From Daejeonella sp. JGW-45 (GTDB lineage: Bacteria; Bacteroidota; Bacteroidia; Sphingobacteriales; Sphingobacteriaceae), in NCBI RefSeq assembly GCF_029360805.1, contig NZ_JARKNC010000008.1:804339-868338 (forward strand): 64,000 bases of DNA. Reading direction: 5' to 3'. Every line of letters begins with the position of its first letter. Position 1 is the first letter of the stretch. This document shows positions 3,536-9,823 of this stretch, piece by piece. Under the pieces are notes generated by a model. The model was not told where the DNA came from, ran no database searches, and was given only the letters and a program-made list of their open reading frames with translations. Made by a program: the position numbers and the translations under genes.

Positions 3536-6382
3536 CTAAAACAGTCCCAGCTGTCCCTTATCATCAATATCCAGGTCGTCCGGGTTGGTGATCTCAAAAT
3601 CGATCTTCTTAGCTGGTTTAGTTTCCTCCGGCGTCTGCTGCTTTTCCGTCGGCTGCGGTGGTTCCGGCACCTCTACGTCCTCCGGAGCTTCGGCCCCGTC
3701 AATCACCGGACCTTCTCCTTCGGCAGGGTTTTCGGTACCAGGTTCTGCATCCTCCATATCTATAGCCATTGAAGATACCGGAGTAGCGGTACGCACGCCC
3801 GGCTCTGGCTCATCTTCTTCACCGCGAGCAACCGGGTCCGTAATAACCACCTCATCTATGTCAAGTTCTGACGGAGCGACCAGTTCTATCGATTTCACCT
3901 CGTGCGATGATAAACGGTTGCCCAATGCTTTCATTCCCTTAACCTCGATCGCATCGGCCAGGTCTATCTCAAGAATTTCAGATATCTTGGTTTTACCCTT
4001 CAACACCTCGATTGTTACTGCAGGCTTTTGAAGCCCGGTAAGCAGTACCAACTTAGAACCGTTTTCCTCACTGATCACGCTGGTTTTCTTTCCTATGGAC
4101 GAGCTTTCAAACACGAAGCGTTTTAAATAATGCGAGCCTGATTTTCCTTCCAGGTAGACTAGCGTGAATATCTTCTCAGGATTATACTTTTCGATCAAAA
4201 GCAGATGATCGTCAAAATGGTTACTCAGGTCGAAGCTGCTCAGTTCATAAACACCATTCCTGTCTACCGTCAGTATGCGGTCGTCGCCGTCAAACTCGCC
4301 GAGGTATTTTCCGCGCGAATCTACATTCAGCCTTTTAAGGATCTCATCATACCAGATTTTTCTTCCTGACAGAGTGGAAATCCCCTTACTCTTAAGTACT
4401 ATTTTCTTAACAGGATATTTTGTTACGATATTACCCATCGAGCTCCGGCCCTTAATCACCTGCTCGGCAAAATCCACATCAAACTGCAGCTTTTTAAGCT
4501 TGGAGTGCGGCTTCAGCTGGACATTCACAATTTCAGCTTCGCCATTTGGATTGGCCGTAAAATATAAGGTCTTCGAACCCTTGCCGCCCTTGGTCAGGTC
4601 ATATTCTTTCTCGCGCGTAACTCCCAATACCGAGAAACGTTTAATGTATGAGGTACCGCTCTCCCCATCCCGGTAGATCATGTTATACACCGTGCGCTCA
4701 TCGTTTTTCTTAAAAACCTGCGCATGAAGTATACCCTTGCCTACAAATGTCTTCTCAGCAACCTTAGAAACATTGAACTTGCCATCCTCACGGAATACGA
4801 TGATCTCATCCAGATCCGAGCAGTCGCACACGAACTCATCTTTCCGCAGACCCGTCCCCACGAATCCATCTTCACGGTTCATGTAAAGTTTCACGTTCGC
4901 CAAAGCAACTTTTGATGCTTCCACCTTATCGAACTGCCTGATCTCAGTTTTCCGTTCACGCCCCGCACCATATTTTTGTTTCAGCTTTTCAAACCAGGCG
5001 ATGGCATAGTCAGTCAGGTGTTTGAGATGCTTGTTAACCTCCTTAATATCATTTTCCAGGGACTTCAGCTGCTCGTCCGATTTCTTCAGGTCGAACCGCG
5101 TGATACTGCTCATTGGCTTATCGATCAGCTTCTTATAATCTTCAGGAAGTATCGTCCGGTAAAACTGAGGGAAGAAAGGCTCAAATAATTTATTAAGGAC
5201 TTCTACAACGACTTCGAAATTACCGGAACTTTCATAGTCCGGGTTCTTATACATACCCTCCTGAATAAATATCTTAAGCAGGGAGCTGAAAAATATCTTC
5301 TCCTTAAGGTCAGCAAGCCTGATCTCAAGTTCCTGCTTAAGCAGGTTCTTCGTATGATGGGTGCTTTCGATAAGTATATCGTTCACACTCATAAAGTAAG
5401 GCTTATCAGCCTTTATAATACAAGTGTTTGGCGATATGGAAACCTCACAATCCGTAAATGCATAGAGTGCATCAATGGTAACGTCAGGGGAAATACCCGG
5501 CGCAAGATGGATGATGATCTCGACATCTTTGGCGGTATTGTCTTCAATCTTTTTGATCTTGATCTTACCCTTGTCATTCGCCGAAATAACGCTGTCTATT
5601 AATCCGCCTGTGGTGGTACTATAAGGAATTTCCGTAATAGCCAGGGTCTTCTTATCGCGCTCAACGATCTTGGCGCGGACACGAACCTTCCCGCCACGCA
5701 TACCCTCATTGTAATTGCTGAAATCAGCCATCCCTCCCGTCTGGAAATCAGGAAGCAGGTCTGGGCGCTTACCTTTCAGGACTTCGATGGAGCCCTCAAT
5801 GAGCTCCACAAAGTTGTGGGGCATAACCTTGGTGGCCAGGCCCACAGCAATACCATCAGCTCCTTCAGCCAGGAGCAATGGAAATTTCACCGGAAGCGTA
5901 ACAGGTTCCTTGTTACGGCCATCATAACTTGACTGCCATTCAGTTGTATCCGGGTTAAAAACCACTTCCAAGGCAAATTTGGAAAGACGGGCTTCGATGT
6001 ACCTTGGTGCAGCTGCCGAATCCCCGGTAACCGGGTCGCCCCAGTTTCCCTGGGTGTCAATAAGTAAATTCCGCTGCCCGATCTGCACCATCGCATCGCC
6101 GATAGAACGGTCGCCATGCGGATGATACTTCATAGTATTTCCAATAACATTTGCCGCTTTGTTGAAGCGGCCATCGTCCATTTCTTTTAGCGAATGAAGA
6201 ATACGTCGCTGCACAGGCTTCAACCCATCGTGTATATGGGGCACAGCCCGGTCCAGGATCACATACGATGCGTAATCCAAAAACCAATTCTCATACAAAC
6301 CCGAAAGGGAGATAGCATTATGAACAGCTTCGTCACCTGCAGGTGCAGTATCAGCACCTGTATTTTCTATTTCTTCACTCAT
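3536..6382 (-). CDS. parC: DNA topoisomerase IV subunit A
   Basis: DNA-breaking subunit of a type IIA topoisomerase. The N-terminal winged-helix/tower part has AVPHIHDGLKPVQRRIL and the active-site Tyr128 in AAAPRYIEARL. Coiled-coil segments lie at about 450-500, followed by a beta-pinwheel-like C-terminal half. The last ~120 residues (PEPG, EGEGP, PEDVEVPEPPQP) form an acidic, proline-rich tail ending in a short conserved-looking DDKGQLGLF. At 948 aa it is longer than E. coli ParC (about 750 aa). ParC rather than GyrA is chosen from the HPHGD-x-S-I-G-D context and the presence of a ParE-type subunit at 10.4 kb. The residue at the classical quinolone Ser position is Arg92. The two subunit genes are separated by four other genes. 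Confidence 0.9.
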   Translation of the reverse strand: MSEEIENTGADTAPAGDEAVHNAISLSGLYENWFLDYASYVILDRAVPHIHDGLKPVQRRILHSLKEMDDGRFNKAANVIGNTMKYHPHGDRSIGDAMVQIGQRNLLIDTQGNWGDPVTGDSAAAPRYIEARLSKFALEVVFNPDTTEWQSSYDGRNKEPVTLPVKFPLLLAEGADGIAVGLATKVMPHNFVELIEGSIEVLKGKRPDLLPDFQTGGMADFSNYNEGMRGGKVRVRAKIVERDKKTLAITEIPYSTTTGGLIDSVISANDKGKIKIKKIEDNTAKDVEIIIHLAPGISPDVTIDALYAFTDCEVSISPNTCIIKADKPYFMSVNDILIESTHHTKNLLKQELEIRLADLKEKIFFSSLLKIFIQEGMYKNPDYESSGNFEVVVEVLNKLFEPFFPQFYRTILPEDYKKLIDKPMSSITRFDLKKSDEQLKSLENDIKEVNKHLKHLTDYAIAWFEKLKQKYGAGRERKTEIRQFDKVEASKVALANVKLYMNREDGFVGTGLRKDEFVCDCSDLDEIIVFREDGKFNVSKVAEKTFVGKGILHAQVFKKNDERTVYNMIYRDGESGTSYIKRFSVLGVTREKEYDLTKGGKGSKTLYFTANPNGEAEIVNVQLKPHSKLKKLQFDVDFAEQVIKGRSSMGNIVTKYPVKKIVLKSKGISTLSGRKIWYDEILKRLNVDSRGKYLGEFDGDDRILTVDRNGVYELSSFDLSNHFDDHLLLIEKYNPEKIFTLVYLEGKSGSHYLKRFVFESSSIGKKTSVISEENGSKLVLLTGLQKPAVTIEVLKGKTKISEILEIDLADAIEVKGMKALGNRLSSHEVKSIELVAPSELDIDEVVITDPVARGEEDEPEPGVRTATPVSSMAIDMEDAEPGTENPAEGEGPVIDGAEAPEDVEVPEPPQPTEKQQTPEETKPAKKIDFEITNPDDLDIDDKGQLGLF

Positions 6383-6461: not shown

Positions 6462-7166
6462 ATGACAAATTATTTTAATCCGGAAGCAACCTTTTCTTCA
6501 TTAACTTCGTGTATAAGGAAACAGCTGTCAAAATTGAATAATTCGCTGGATCATTTGCCCGATAAATTAAGGGAGGACTGTATCCGTGGCGATGCGGGTA
6601 GTCAAAAGAAATTGTATTACGGTTTCTATAGCTTCGCTATGGCTATTTGCCTGCGATATGCACGCGACCGCGATGAGGCGGAGAACATACTCAACGATGG
6701 CTTTTTTAAGGTACTGACCAACCTGAACCGTTATGACAGCTCCAAGCCATTCCTTCCCTGGCTTGGACGTGTGATGACCAATACAGCTATCGACCACTAC
6801 AGAAGCCAGCTACGCCATCCGGAAACGGATGATATTACGGAAATGGATATATATGGCGAAAACCCTGTAATCGACAGCAAACTAAATTATGATGATCTGA
6901 TCAAACTGGTTCAGAAATTACCACCCGGTTATCGTACAGTTTTTAACCTGTATGCTATCGACGGGCTTACACACGAAGAAATCGCTGAAAAGCTTGGCAT
7001 ATCATCCGGAACTTCAAAGTCGAATCTATTTAAAGCACGGCAGAAGTTAATTAGCATGTTAGACGAGCAGAAAAAATTAACAGAGGGTGTAGTAAGAACC
7101 CTTAATAACGATAATGAACAACACGAATCAAAACCATACCGACATTTTTTTCAGGCAGGGGCTTAG
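6462..7166 (+). CDS. RNA polymerase ECF-type sigma factor
   Basis: Sigma-70 family regulator of 234 aa. Region 2 includes FYSFAMAICLRYARDRDEAENILNDGFFKVLTNL, ending in FLPWLGRVMTNTAIDHYRS. Region 4 has LPPGYRTVFNLYAIDGLTHEEIAEKLGISSGTSKSNLFKARQKL, the usual helix-turn-helix. The N-terminal ~45 residues before region 2 are longer than in most ECF factors. Divergent from the topoisomerase subunit A gene. Its end overlaps the start of the next gene by 53 bp, implying translational coupling to a membrane-anchored partner that probably acts as its anti-sigma factor (inference). Confidence 0.93.
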   Translation: MTNYFNPEATFSSLTSCIRKQLSKLNNSLDHLPDKLREDCIRGDAGSQKKLYYGFYSFAMAICLRYARDRDEAENILNDGFFKVLTNLNRYDSSKPFLPWLGRVMTNTAIDHYRSQLRHPETDDITEMDIYGENPVIDSKLNYDDLIKLVQKLPPGYRTVFNLYAIDGLTHEEIAEKLGISSGTSKSNLFKARQKLISMLDEQKKLTEGVVRTLNNDNEQHESKPYRHFFQAGA

Positions 7167-8313
7167 CTCACCTCCGGAATTCAAGCCATCTGAACAAAAT
7201 TGGCGGGCTATGGAACGGCTTCTTAAACCAAAAGCTAAAAAACGGTCCATCGGTTGGATCTATGCCGCGGCAGGGATCGCTGCAGCATTGCTGGTATCTC
7301 TTGTATTCTGGCTGGAACGCCAAAAACCACTTGCCACTGAGCAAAAATTAGTAACTAAGGATAAGGACAATATTATACCGCCGGCGACGCAGTCTGTCGC
7401 AGCATCAACAGAAGGCATCATAACGAAAAAGCATATAAGCCCAAGCAGCAATATCAGTGCATTCGAGAGTTCGTCTGTCGCCGCGAACACCTATCCGGTT
7501 GTAGAAAGCAATGCAGGAGGCCGGCAGCCGGCCACAAGGCCGCGAGATCTGCTGGCCGCTCAGTCTGTATCTATCAGGCAAAGCCTGACTACCGGAACAA
7601 GGGCCATCATTGTGGTGCCAGCAAACACTTTAAGTATTCCGGGGGACGGCGAAAACAGTGAGTCCAGGGATTTGATTAAAGATACCGATACGCGATCAGG
7701 CAATATTGCCGGCAGATGGGCAATCAGTCTGGCCGCATCACCAGACCTCAATTCGGTAGCGGGTGTCGACAAAGGCGCATTTGGCATGAGCGTGGGTGCG
7801 GGCGTGAGTTACAGGCTGGGCAAAGCCATCAGTGTAGGAACGGGCGTCTATTATTCCAGGAAATTTTATTCGGCCGATAAAACCTCGTACAGAGTTAAAG
7901 AAAAACCATTCGCTACCTGGACAAGCCGTTCGAACAGTATTGACGCAGATTGCGAGGTTATAGATGTCCCGGTAAATTTAAGCATGAAGCTGATCAGCAA
8001 AAAACAGAACAATGTGTATGCAACAGCCGGCTTATCTTCCTATATCATGCTTTCCGAAAAGTATAATTTTAAGTATAACAAATCTCCAGCATATCCTACA
8101 GGAAGCAGGGAGTACACCGTCCACAACCAGAATAAGCATGTATTGAGCGTGGTGAACCTTGGAATTGCTATTGAGAAGCCTGTTAATGAACAAGTAAGCC
8201 TGGTTGTTCAACCCTACGCAAAATTACCACTCACCGGAATCGGGCAGGGTGAAACTAATCTGAAATCGTTTGGGCTTGCGTTGAAGCTTAATTATTCATT
8301 GAAAAGAAAGTAA
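7114..8313 (+). CDS. membrane-anchored protein with C-terminal outer-membrane beta-barrel-like domain; putative anti-sigma partner
   Basis: A 399-aa protein with unusual architecture. A cytoplasmic-looking N-terminus of about 48 residues (FKPSEQNWRAMERLLKPKAKKR) precedes one membrane helix (WIYAAAGIAAALLVSLVFWL). A long Ser/Thr-rich linker follows to about residue 190, then a repeat of amphipathic strands (GAFGMSVGAGVSYRLGKAISVGTGVYYSRKFYS to the C-terminal LKSFGLALKLNYSLKRK), as in PF13568-type outer-membrane barrels. There is no cleavable signal peptide. The overlap with the sigma gene suggests an anti-sigma role for the N-terminus. How a protein with an inner-membrane anchor would hold a barrel-like domain is not clear. 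It ends one base before the stop of the convergent OmpA gene. Confidence 0.8.
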   Translation: MNNTNQNHTDIFFRQGLSSPPEFKPSEQNWRAMERLLKPKAKKRSIGWIYAAAGIAAALLVSLVFWLERQKPLATEQKLVTKDKDNIIPPATQSVAASTEGIITKKHISPSSNISAFESSSVAANTYPVVESNAGGRQPATRPRDLLAAQSVSIRQSLTTGTRAIIVVPANTLSIPGDGENSESRDLIKDTDTRSGNIAGRWAISLAASPDLNSVAGVDKGAFGMSVGAGVSYRLGKAISVGTGVYYSRKFYSADKTSYRVKEKPFATWTSRSNSIDADCEVIDVPVNLSMKLISKKQNNVYATAGLSSYIMLSEKYNFKYNKSPAYPTGSREYTVHNQNKHVLSVVNLGIAIEKPVNEQVSLVVQPYAKLPLTGIGQGETNLKSFGLALKLNYSLKRK

Positions 8314-8314
8314 G

Positions 8315-9823
8315 TTATTCCTTCCTTACAAACATAATCTCCACTCTCCGGTTTGCCTGACGGCCGCTGTCTGTGCTGTTAGTCGCGGCAGGCTCGGTGA
8401 AAGATTTGGCCTGGGCAGGCAGATCGCGCTTACCCAGGATCTGGTTAACGGCATCAATGACCGACTGATTCCTTCTCCGGGAAAGAGCGACATTGTAAGC
8501 CATGCTGCCTATACTATCGGTATGCCCGGTAATGCGGAAGTTGTAATAAGCACTTAGCTTCCGGAAACGCTCCATAGCCTCTTTCAATTTTACCATCTCC
8601 GTGGCGGAAATATCCGACTTATCGAAATCAAAATAGATCACCGTGTTTTCAAGCACCGGGACACTTACACTTTTTGCGGGGGTCGGGGTGACTTCCGCTT
8701 TGGGCAGGGGGCTGGGCCTCGCGTCTACCGGGGTAGCCGCAACCGGCTGACTGACATCAACAGGCTGCTGTATGTTGGTTTTATAGGCATCAGGTATAAT
8801 ATCTTCCAGCTTCTTTCCCTGAAGGATCAGATTAGGATCAATCACCTTGCTCAGATCGGGATAATCTTTAAAATCAGGTTGAGTTACATCCTTTTTTGCA
8901 GTCAGGCTTCGGTCTTCGATAAACACGCCCGAATCGTAAATATTATCTGAAACATCGGCTAACACGATCTTTAAATGATATTTCTTATAAGGAGTAACAT
9001 ACATTTGGGCTACCAGCTTTTTGGTAATACCATCATAACGAAGGTTACGGTACAGGTTCGCGTCCAGGGTTTTCAGAAGTTCAGGATCGGGCGCTATCAC
9101 TACACGGTCGGCATTACCGGCATAATCAGGATCTCCAAAAACAGATGCGATCCCCCTAAGAATCCGTCCCGGTAAAGTACCCCTGTAGGTAGATTTAACT
9201 GGATCCTGTCTTTTTATCACAACCTGCTTGTACAGGTTATTGTCAATAAAGTGATCCTGGTTGGATTTAAAATTGATCGTATTGATACTGACCGGAACAT
9301 TCGTACCCGGTACCAGGGCTATATTTTTTGAAGTGGTTTCATCAGAAACTATGAACGCAAAAATATCATTATAGGGAGAATCGACATATTCAGGATATTC
9401 GTCGGAGCCGAACTGATAATTGAACTGGATACTGTTATCCATCGGCACGAAGTCGAATTCGATGCTGCACACATCAAATAATTTTTCTGTGATCATTTTA
9501 GCCAGGTCGGCGTCGGCAGCAGGAACACTGACATCACTAAATGTCGAGCTTTGATTGTGCGAATTATTATAACCTGCTACGTTGAAGGAGTTTCCCGAGG
9601 AGAGGATCAGCCCTTTGGGTACCTTTAAGACGTTGGCGGAACTGGTAAAAGACAAGATAGAAAGCGGATACCCTTTATGGGTAATATTGCCGATAACCAC
9701 ACCCTGTCCGCTGAAGTTTTTTTTGATCCAATCATCAACATTTATCGATGATAACCTGATCTGAGCATTAGATATGCTGCTGCAGGCCAATATTAACAAA
9801 ATCAGGTAACCGGCTTTCTTCAT
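8315..9823 (-). CDS. choice-of-anchor L / OmpA family outer-membrane protein
   Basis: Secreted protein of 502 aa with a signal peptide (cut after about residue 20, SISNAQ). The N-terminal ~300 residues are a choice-of-anchor L domain: GVVIGNITHKG, PKGLILSSGNSFNVAGYNNS, FVPMDNSIQFNYQFGSDEYPEYVDSPYNDIFAFIVS. A proline-rich linker (about 355-390) leads to an OmpA peptidoglycan-binding domain: VIYFDFDKSDIS, FRITGHTDSIGSMAYNVALSRRRNQSV, RQANRRVEIMFV. It probably tethers the envelope to peptidoglycan while showing the N-terminal domain outside or in the periplasm (inference). It converges on the beta-barrel-like gene with a 1-bp gap. Confidence 0.88.
   Translation of the reverse strand: MKKAGYLILLILACSSISNAQIRLSSINVDDWIKKNFSGQGVVIGNITHKGYPLSILSFTSSANVLKVPKGLILSSGNSFNVAGYNNSHNQSSTFSDVSVPAADADLAKMITEKLFDVCSIEFDFVPMDNSIQFNYQFGSDEYPEYVDSPYNDIFAFIVSDETTSKNIALVPGTNVPVSINTINFKSNQDHFIDNNLYKQVVIKRQDPVKSTYRGTLPGRILRGIASVFGDPDYAGNADRVVIAPDPELLKTLDANLYRNLRYDGITKKLVAQMYVTPYKKYHLKIVLADVSDNIYDSGVFIEDRSLTAKKDVTQPDFKDYPDLSKVIDPNLILQGKKLEDIIPDAYKTNIQQPVDVSQPVAATPVDARPSPLPKAEVTPTPAKSVSVPVLENTVIYFDFDKSDISATEMVKLKEAMERFRKLSAYYNFRITGHTDSIGSMAYNVALSRRRNQSVIDAVNQILGKRDLPAQAKSFTEPAATNSTDSGRQANRRVEIMFVRKE

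Follow-up and report, generated by a model that had tools for sequence, protein, structure and literature searches.

Introduction

Dual membrane-spanning anti-sigma factors (Dma) are a class of proteins described as confined to Bacteroidota and recognized by a four-part architecture together with a neighboring ECF sigma gene (PMC13088901). A sigma factor of ECF group 21 is a further mark of the family. Dma1 was first described in Pardue et al. (PNAS 2024, cited here via later papers), and Dma1 and Dma2 are now known to control their cognate sigma factors, the deletion phenotypes being sigma-dependent (Pardue et al. 2026, PMC13088901). EcfO/Reo, first described in J Bacteriol 2013 (likewise cited via later papers), is a pair of similar build that occurs in B. 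fragilis and in P. vulgatus (M0N98_03761/03760), in which the sigma gene is followed by that of a large, predicted periplasm-spanning anti-sigma factor with a C-terminal outer-membrane barrel; Reo has been described as spanning all five compartments and as a likely sensor of outer-membrane stress, and the pair is induced by antibacterial toxins and oxygen (PMC9308784, PMC13114119). For the SigX-CfrX/CmpX-OprF system of P. aeruginosa, signaling from the OprF barrel to an ECF sigma factor has been proposed (review PMC8999054).

Here we describe a two-gene operon, an ECF sigma gene followed by the gene of a 399-aa membrane protein, from a stretch of 64,000 nucleotides (the window) of a Daejeonella-type member of the Sphingobacteriaceae. 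The operon very probably constitutes a Dma-type sigma/anti-sigma system, in which a protein reaching from the inner to the outer membrane would control the sigma factor. Like Dma1/Das1 and Dma2/Das2 of Bacteroides thetaiotaomicron, it comes from a host within Bacteroidota and combines an adjacent ECF sigma gene with an N-terminal sigma-binding domain (here predicted), one transmembrane helix, a long disordered tether and a C-terminal outer-membrane beta-barrel (here modeled with medium confidence), whereas the host belongs to a different bacterial family, the Sphingobacteriaceae. By this architecture the protein is a member of the Dma family, and it is set beside Dma1 and Reo on the strength of their published descriptions. 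With EcfO-Reo it shares the gene order and the large, predicted periplasm-spanning anti-sigma factor with its C-terminal barrel, but a NigD regulon is known there and none was found here: NigD_C, the family of a known Dma1 target, was not found in the window genome and matched few proteins among the genomes searched. The N-terminal barrel of OprF is a fold match of the barrel described here (Z 16.7), but the SigX-CfrX/CmpX-OprF system consists of separate proteins, has no covalent tether and belongs to a different phylum.

The kind of system is therefore already known, outer-membrane-stress sensing having been proposed for the similarly built Reo (PMC9308784, PMC13114119). What is added here is a conserved, probably autoregulatory promoter, a correction of the sigma gene start, and a counterpart in which anti-sigma module and barrel-type protein are split; no description of the GCAACC-N16-CGT promoter or of the split counterpart was found in the open-access papers searched, a set that does not include the founding Dma paper.

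Locus and gene organization

Contig C9 of a genome of 4.1 Mb carries the locus, and the same locus is present in the congener Daejeonella lutea DSM 22385 (G018). Its features are as follows.

3536-6382, minus strand: long ORF, the 5' neighbor of the operon, which from its sequence we take to resemble a topoisomerase/gyrase A-type subunit
6486-6512, plus strand: predicted ECF-type promoter with -35 GCAACC (6486-6491), a 16-bp spacer and -10 CGTGT (6508-6512); invariant in 9/9 aligned congeners
6534-7166, plus strand: ECF sigma factor gene, 210 aa, with a TTG start; Pfam Sigma70_r2/r4_2
7114-7166, plus strand: overlap of the sigma stop region with the anti-sigma gene start, exactly 53 bp
7114-8313, plus strand: putative Dma-type dual-membrane anti-sigma factor, 399 aa, assigned from the ORF, its domains and its adjacency to the sigma gene
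7114-7251, plus strand: N-terminal anti-sigma module, residues 1-46, expected to be cytoplasmic; W30 and homology to short anti-sigma proteins
7252-7320, plus strand: predicted inner-membrane helix, residues 47-69; sequence, low-confidence model and a conserved GIAAxLL
7321-7719, plus strand: linker of 133 aa (residues 70-202), predicted to be disordered and periplasmic, of low complexity and up to ~47 nm long if extended
7720-8298, plus strand: predicted 8-stranded outer-membrane-type beta-barrel, residues 203-395; PF13568, model, fold matches and residue alternation
8315-9823, minus strand: gene that converges on the anti-sigma gene and encodes a choice-of-anchor-L domain fused to an OmpA peptidoglycan-binding domain

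An earlier note on this DNA had reported an ECF sigma gene overlapping a membrane-protein gene by 53 bp, and both the ORF at 7114-8313 and the overlap at 7114-7166 proved exact. The overlap is a conserved feature, since the six closest relatives (L033/L004, L005-L009) all share the exact length of 53 bp with the window; in remoter relatives it is often 4 bp, or else 17 or 74 bp, or is replaced by a short gap. This conservation, at 53 bp among close and often at 4 bp among remote relatives, points to translational coupling of the two genes. The sigma gene stands directly 5' in 26 of 29 distinct homologs of the 399-aa protein. In one of the three exceptions a deletion has truncated the locus but left the promoter and some of the sigma gene; the second lies at the edge of a contig, and the third is an orphan. 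Further homologs occur across the phylum, nearly all with a sigma gene directly 5', and no relative was found in the viral contigs searched.

Several individual loci are recorded here in their own right. At L094/L010 (G011:C18) a deletion, or an assembly join, fuses the promoter and sigma start to the end of the barrel, so that the 3' end of the sigma gene is missing, as is most of the anti-sigma portion. A Dma-type gene at L080 2381-3658 (G050:C8) has no sigma gene that could be found beside it. The window genome itself carries a second, diverged fused sigma/Dma-type pair (L003 2065-3965, minus strand; G000:C7, ~464-466 kb), with an anti-sigma protein of 447 aa, a 4-bp overlap and no GCAACC promoter. 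At L136 1602-3417 (G092:C17) there is a remote sigma/Dma-type pair with this architecture; its genome, one of the few with a NigD_C match, belongs to a different class from the window genome, and the neighboring genes examined there did not point to Bacteroidales.

Sigma factor and its start

The sigma factor matches Sigma70_r2 and Sigma70_r4_2 (Pfam) far above cut-off. It reaches 81.4 bits against TIGR02985, under the cut-off of 126.4, and no FecR match was found in the anti-sigma protein, so the pair does not have the features of the FecR-type Bacteroidetes sigma/anti-sigma systems, in which a TIGR02985 sigma factor goes with SusC/D transducers. The gene most likely begins at the TTG at 6534, and not at 6462 as previously proposed, because the latter start would enclose the conserved promoter at 6486-6512 within the gene. 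The TTG is invariant in the upstream alignment of nine congeneric loci, and several orthologs lack any ATG 5' of it.

Architecture of the anti-sigma protein

The charged N-terminal segment, single helix and long linker named in the earlier note are all present (~46 aa, residues 47-69 and ~133 aa). A Lys/Arg-rich stretch, KPKAKKR, lies directly ahead of this single helix, so the N-terminus is expected inside and, by the positive-inside rule, the C-terminus in the periplasm. The full-length AlphaFold model, built from two sequences, had a pLDDT of 30.6 and was set aside in favor of the barrel model alone, the helix at 47-69 being visible in it at low confidence. Trp30 is invariant in 26 homologs, and this conservation, the gene order and the homology to the N-terminus of barrel-less anti-sigma proteins make it probable that the first ~46 residues bind and inhibit the cognate sigma factor, as had been supposed from gene order. 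At L025 2488-2770 (G028:C164) the anti-sigma module occurs in about three tandem repeats (2.9 copies of a 96-bp unit, with 88% matches), so that the encoded protein has three ends that might each bind a sigma factor.

The linker is 117-191 aa long in all 29 homologs and 58-73% of it consists of P/S/T/N/Q/K/E/D/G; its sequence is poorly conserved. At this length it would suffice to cross the periplasm, in keeping with one of two possibilities raised in the earlier note, a periplasm-spanning protein.

The amphipathic C-terminal strands had been likened to PF13568, and the protein does match PF13568 (OMP_b-brl_2), at 27.9 bits against a gathering cut-off of 27; the family is also matched at E<=0.01 by 20/26 homologs. 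The predicted structure of the C-terminal ~200 residues shows eight antiparallel strands in a barrel of outer-membrane type (best blocks pLDDT 70-80, mean 54.8), a model of medium confidence that derives from a two-sequence alignment and of which four of five versions were much worse. Its best fold matches (Foldseek/VIA) are a Legionella porin (Z 17.1), NspA (17.0), OprF (16.7), OmpA (16.2) and OmpW (15.4). A sequence profile search of the PDB gave nothing meaningful. Hydrophobic and polar residues alternate in the modeled strands with a score of 2.81, compared with 1.13 +/- 0.29 in within-strand shuffles, all 5000 of which it exceeds. The C-terminal domain is accordingly modeled, with medium confidence, as an outer-membrane barrel.

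Promoter

Typical ECF promoters have an AAC-containing -35 and a CGT-containing -10 element. The exact pattern GCAACC-N16-CGTGT stands 5' of the operon in 12/12 congeneric genomes. These genomes hold 19 such sites, 13 of them at sigma/Dma loci; seven of the 19 lie elsewhere, and one of the seven precedes another sigma/Dma pair (G018 C10). The other six do not exceed the 15 matches of a reversed control pattern, and for this reason no regulon is claimed from exact promoter matches. Across the family at large, the looser pattern GCAACC-N15-17-CGT was found 5' of 26/54 fused sigma genes (0.025 in shuffles) and of 5/10 split sigma genes (0.01 in shuffles), with two fused and no split loci for the reverse-complement control. 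The -10 box differs by subfamily, being CGTGT or CGTGA in close relatives, CGTAT or CGTAC in others, and CGTCT in split loci of the flavobacterial type. Judged by this conservation, the operon is probably autoregulated from GCAACC-N16-CGTGT. In Flavobacterium psychrophilum, mapping of transcription start sites located a CGT -10 motif 5' of an ECF sigma/anti-sigma pair, and the regulon of that ECF (SM6) sigma factor includes T9SS genes (PMC9723704).

Other occurrences of such sites were noted in the window genome, one of them also in G018. A YceI-like gene, together with a gene for an exported barrel-like protein, is preceded by the exact operon promoter (L081; G000:C3:417357-417383), a candidate target in this single genome. 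GCAACC-N16-CGTAT lies ~290 bp before a GldK-like lipoprotein gene in both L104 (G000:C1:334063-334089) and L102 (G018:C8:274474-274500); judged from its sequence, this gene presumably belongs to type IX secretion. The site was rejected as a regulon member, as it is present in the two closest genomes and was not found in the other congeners.

Split counterparts

The N-terminal module and helix recur in barrel-less proteins of 241-265 aa, each encoded directly 3' of a sigma gene (10/10 examined), and are homologous to those of the fused protein over residues 4-68 (hhalign 97.3%, E 2.4e-11). Because it recurs in these split operons without the barrel, the N-terminal module is the part that always accompanies the sigma factor. 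All ten split loci continue, on the same strand, with a gene for a protein whose start, as read from the sequence, resembles a signal peptide; of six such exported proteins scanned with Pfam, two were above the PF13568 cut-off, one was just below it and three had no relevant match. A barrel-type partner is thus found near the sigma gene, whether fused or separate. Between the barrel of the fused protein and the separately encoded barrel-type proteins hhalign detected no homology (0.4%). For this reason only the N-module and gene order are claimed as shared, and no origin by fusion or fission of one barrel is proposed. In the sigma tree the split loci fall into one supported group, joined by L140, a short protein (186 aa) whose label 'fused' is a default.

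One split operon is located in the window genome outside the window, at ~769.7-772.0 kb (L063; G000:C9:768500-774500). It encodes, in this order, an ECF sigma factor, a 256-aa anti-sigma protein that joins this N-module to a C-terminal tail, likewise conserved, then an exported barrel protein of PF13568 as a gene product of its own and finally an ABC ATPase.

Tentatively, one anti-sigma module might exist in two wirings with the barrel as sensor. Where module and barrel are fused, a barrel that has not assembled or has been dislodged would itself be the signal and so report directly on insertion, while in the split form the same would be achieved via the conserved periplasmic tail of the short anti-sigma protein.

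Proposed mechanism and alternatives

We propose that the N-terminal ~46 residues retain the ECF sigma factor at the cytoplasmic face of the inner membrane, which the single helix would span, while the ~133-residue disordered linker would cross the periplasm to an 8-stranded barrel in the outer membrane. The trigger would be a disturbance that the outer-membrane part senses, or its failed assembly, relayed probably by proteolysis of the tethered protein. The sigma factor so freed would transcribe its own operon from GCAACC-N16-CGTGT and, in all probability, a few further genes. Bacteroidota possess a barrel-assembly machinery of their own type. It is reasonable to suppose that the protein may sense barrel-assembly stress, but a ligand, the distance between the two membranes or general damage to the envelope would fit the present evidence as well.

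The same architecture would also serve a barrel that acts as receptor for a surface ligand or glycan, with ligand binding and not assembly stress freeing the sigma factor. This is a possible but distinctly less favored explanation, for which speak the effect of Dma2 on polysaccharide utilisation loci, its authors' suggestion that it senses a glycan at the outer-membrane surface (PMC13088901), and the strong variation of some inter-strand loops, whose length and sequence differ from homolog to homolog. The operon is not directly adjoined by susC/D or glycan genes, however, and what induces the Reo-type pair is toxins that damage the envelope, not a nutrient (PMC9308784). We consider it unlikely that the protein is instead a sensor of membrane spacing, which would read the length of the linker so that a pull on it during envelope swelling or blebbing alters the sigma-binding end. 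The linker is never shorter than 117 aa despite its poor sequence conservation, and loss of Dma1 or Dma2 alters vesiculation (PMC13088901), which would suit such a sensor.

When fully extended, a disordered chain of 133 aa exceeds the usual width of the periplasm; the linker would therefore be slack, which argues against a reading of its length. It is quite improbable that the C-terminal domain is a soluble or inner-membrane-attached barrel (calycin-like) not inserted into the outer membrane; a soluble domain was the outcome that the earlier note had named as fatal to its proposal. With medium confidence, that outcome did not occur, because the best matches are transmembrane barrels and the strands are hydrophobic on one side. 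The medium confidence of the model, a C-terminus that is a Lys-rich tail and not the usual aromatic residue, and a YceI-type soluble barrel lower among the fold matches (Z 9.3) would suit a soluble domain, but the top matches at Z 15-17, the membership of PF13568 in outer-membrane proteins, the closed 8-strand topology and the regularity of the one-sided hydrophobicity all favor insertion. That the two genes are unrelated neighbors, an ECF sigma gene beside that of a common outer-membrane protein whose N-terminus happens to be unusual, is hardly credible, given that pairing and overlap are conserved across the family and beyond, with conservation found phylum-wide, and that the N-module also adjoins sigma genes where there is no barrel.

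Significance

A physical link between the surface of the outer membrane and a transcription factor in the cytoplasm would be a simple way in which Bacteroidota might monitor their outer membrane, and the operon described here extends this arrangement beyond the gut Bacteroides. The conserved promoter offers a readout of the activity of the system, and the fused and split loci offer a natural comparison for testing the roles of barrel and tether.
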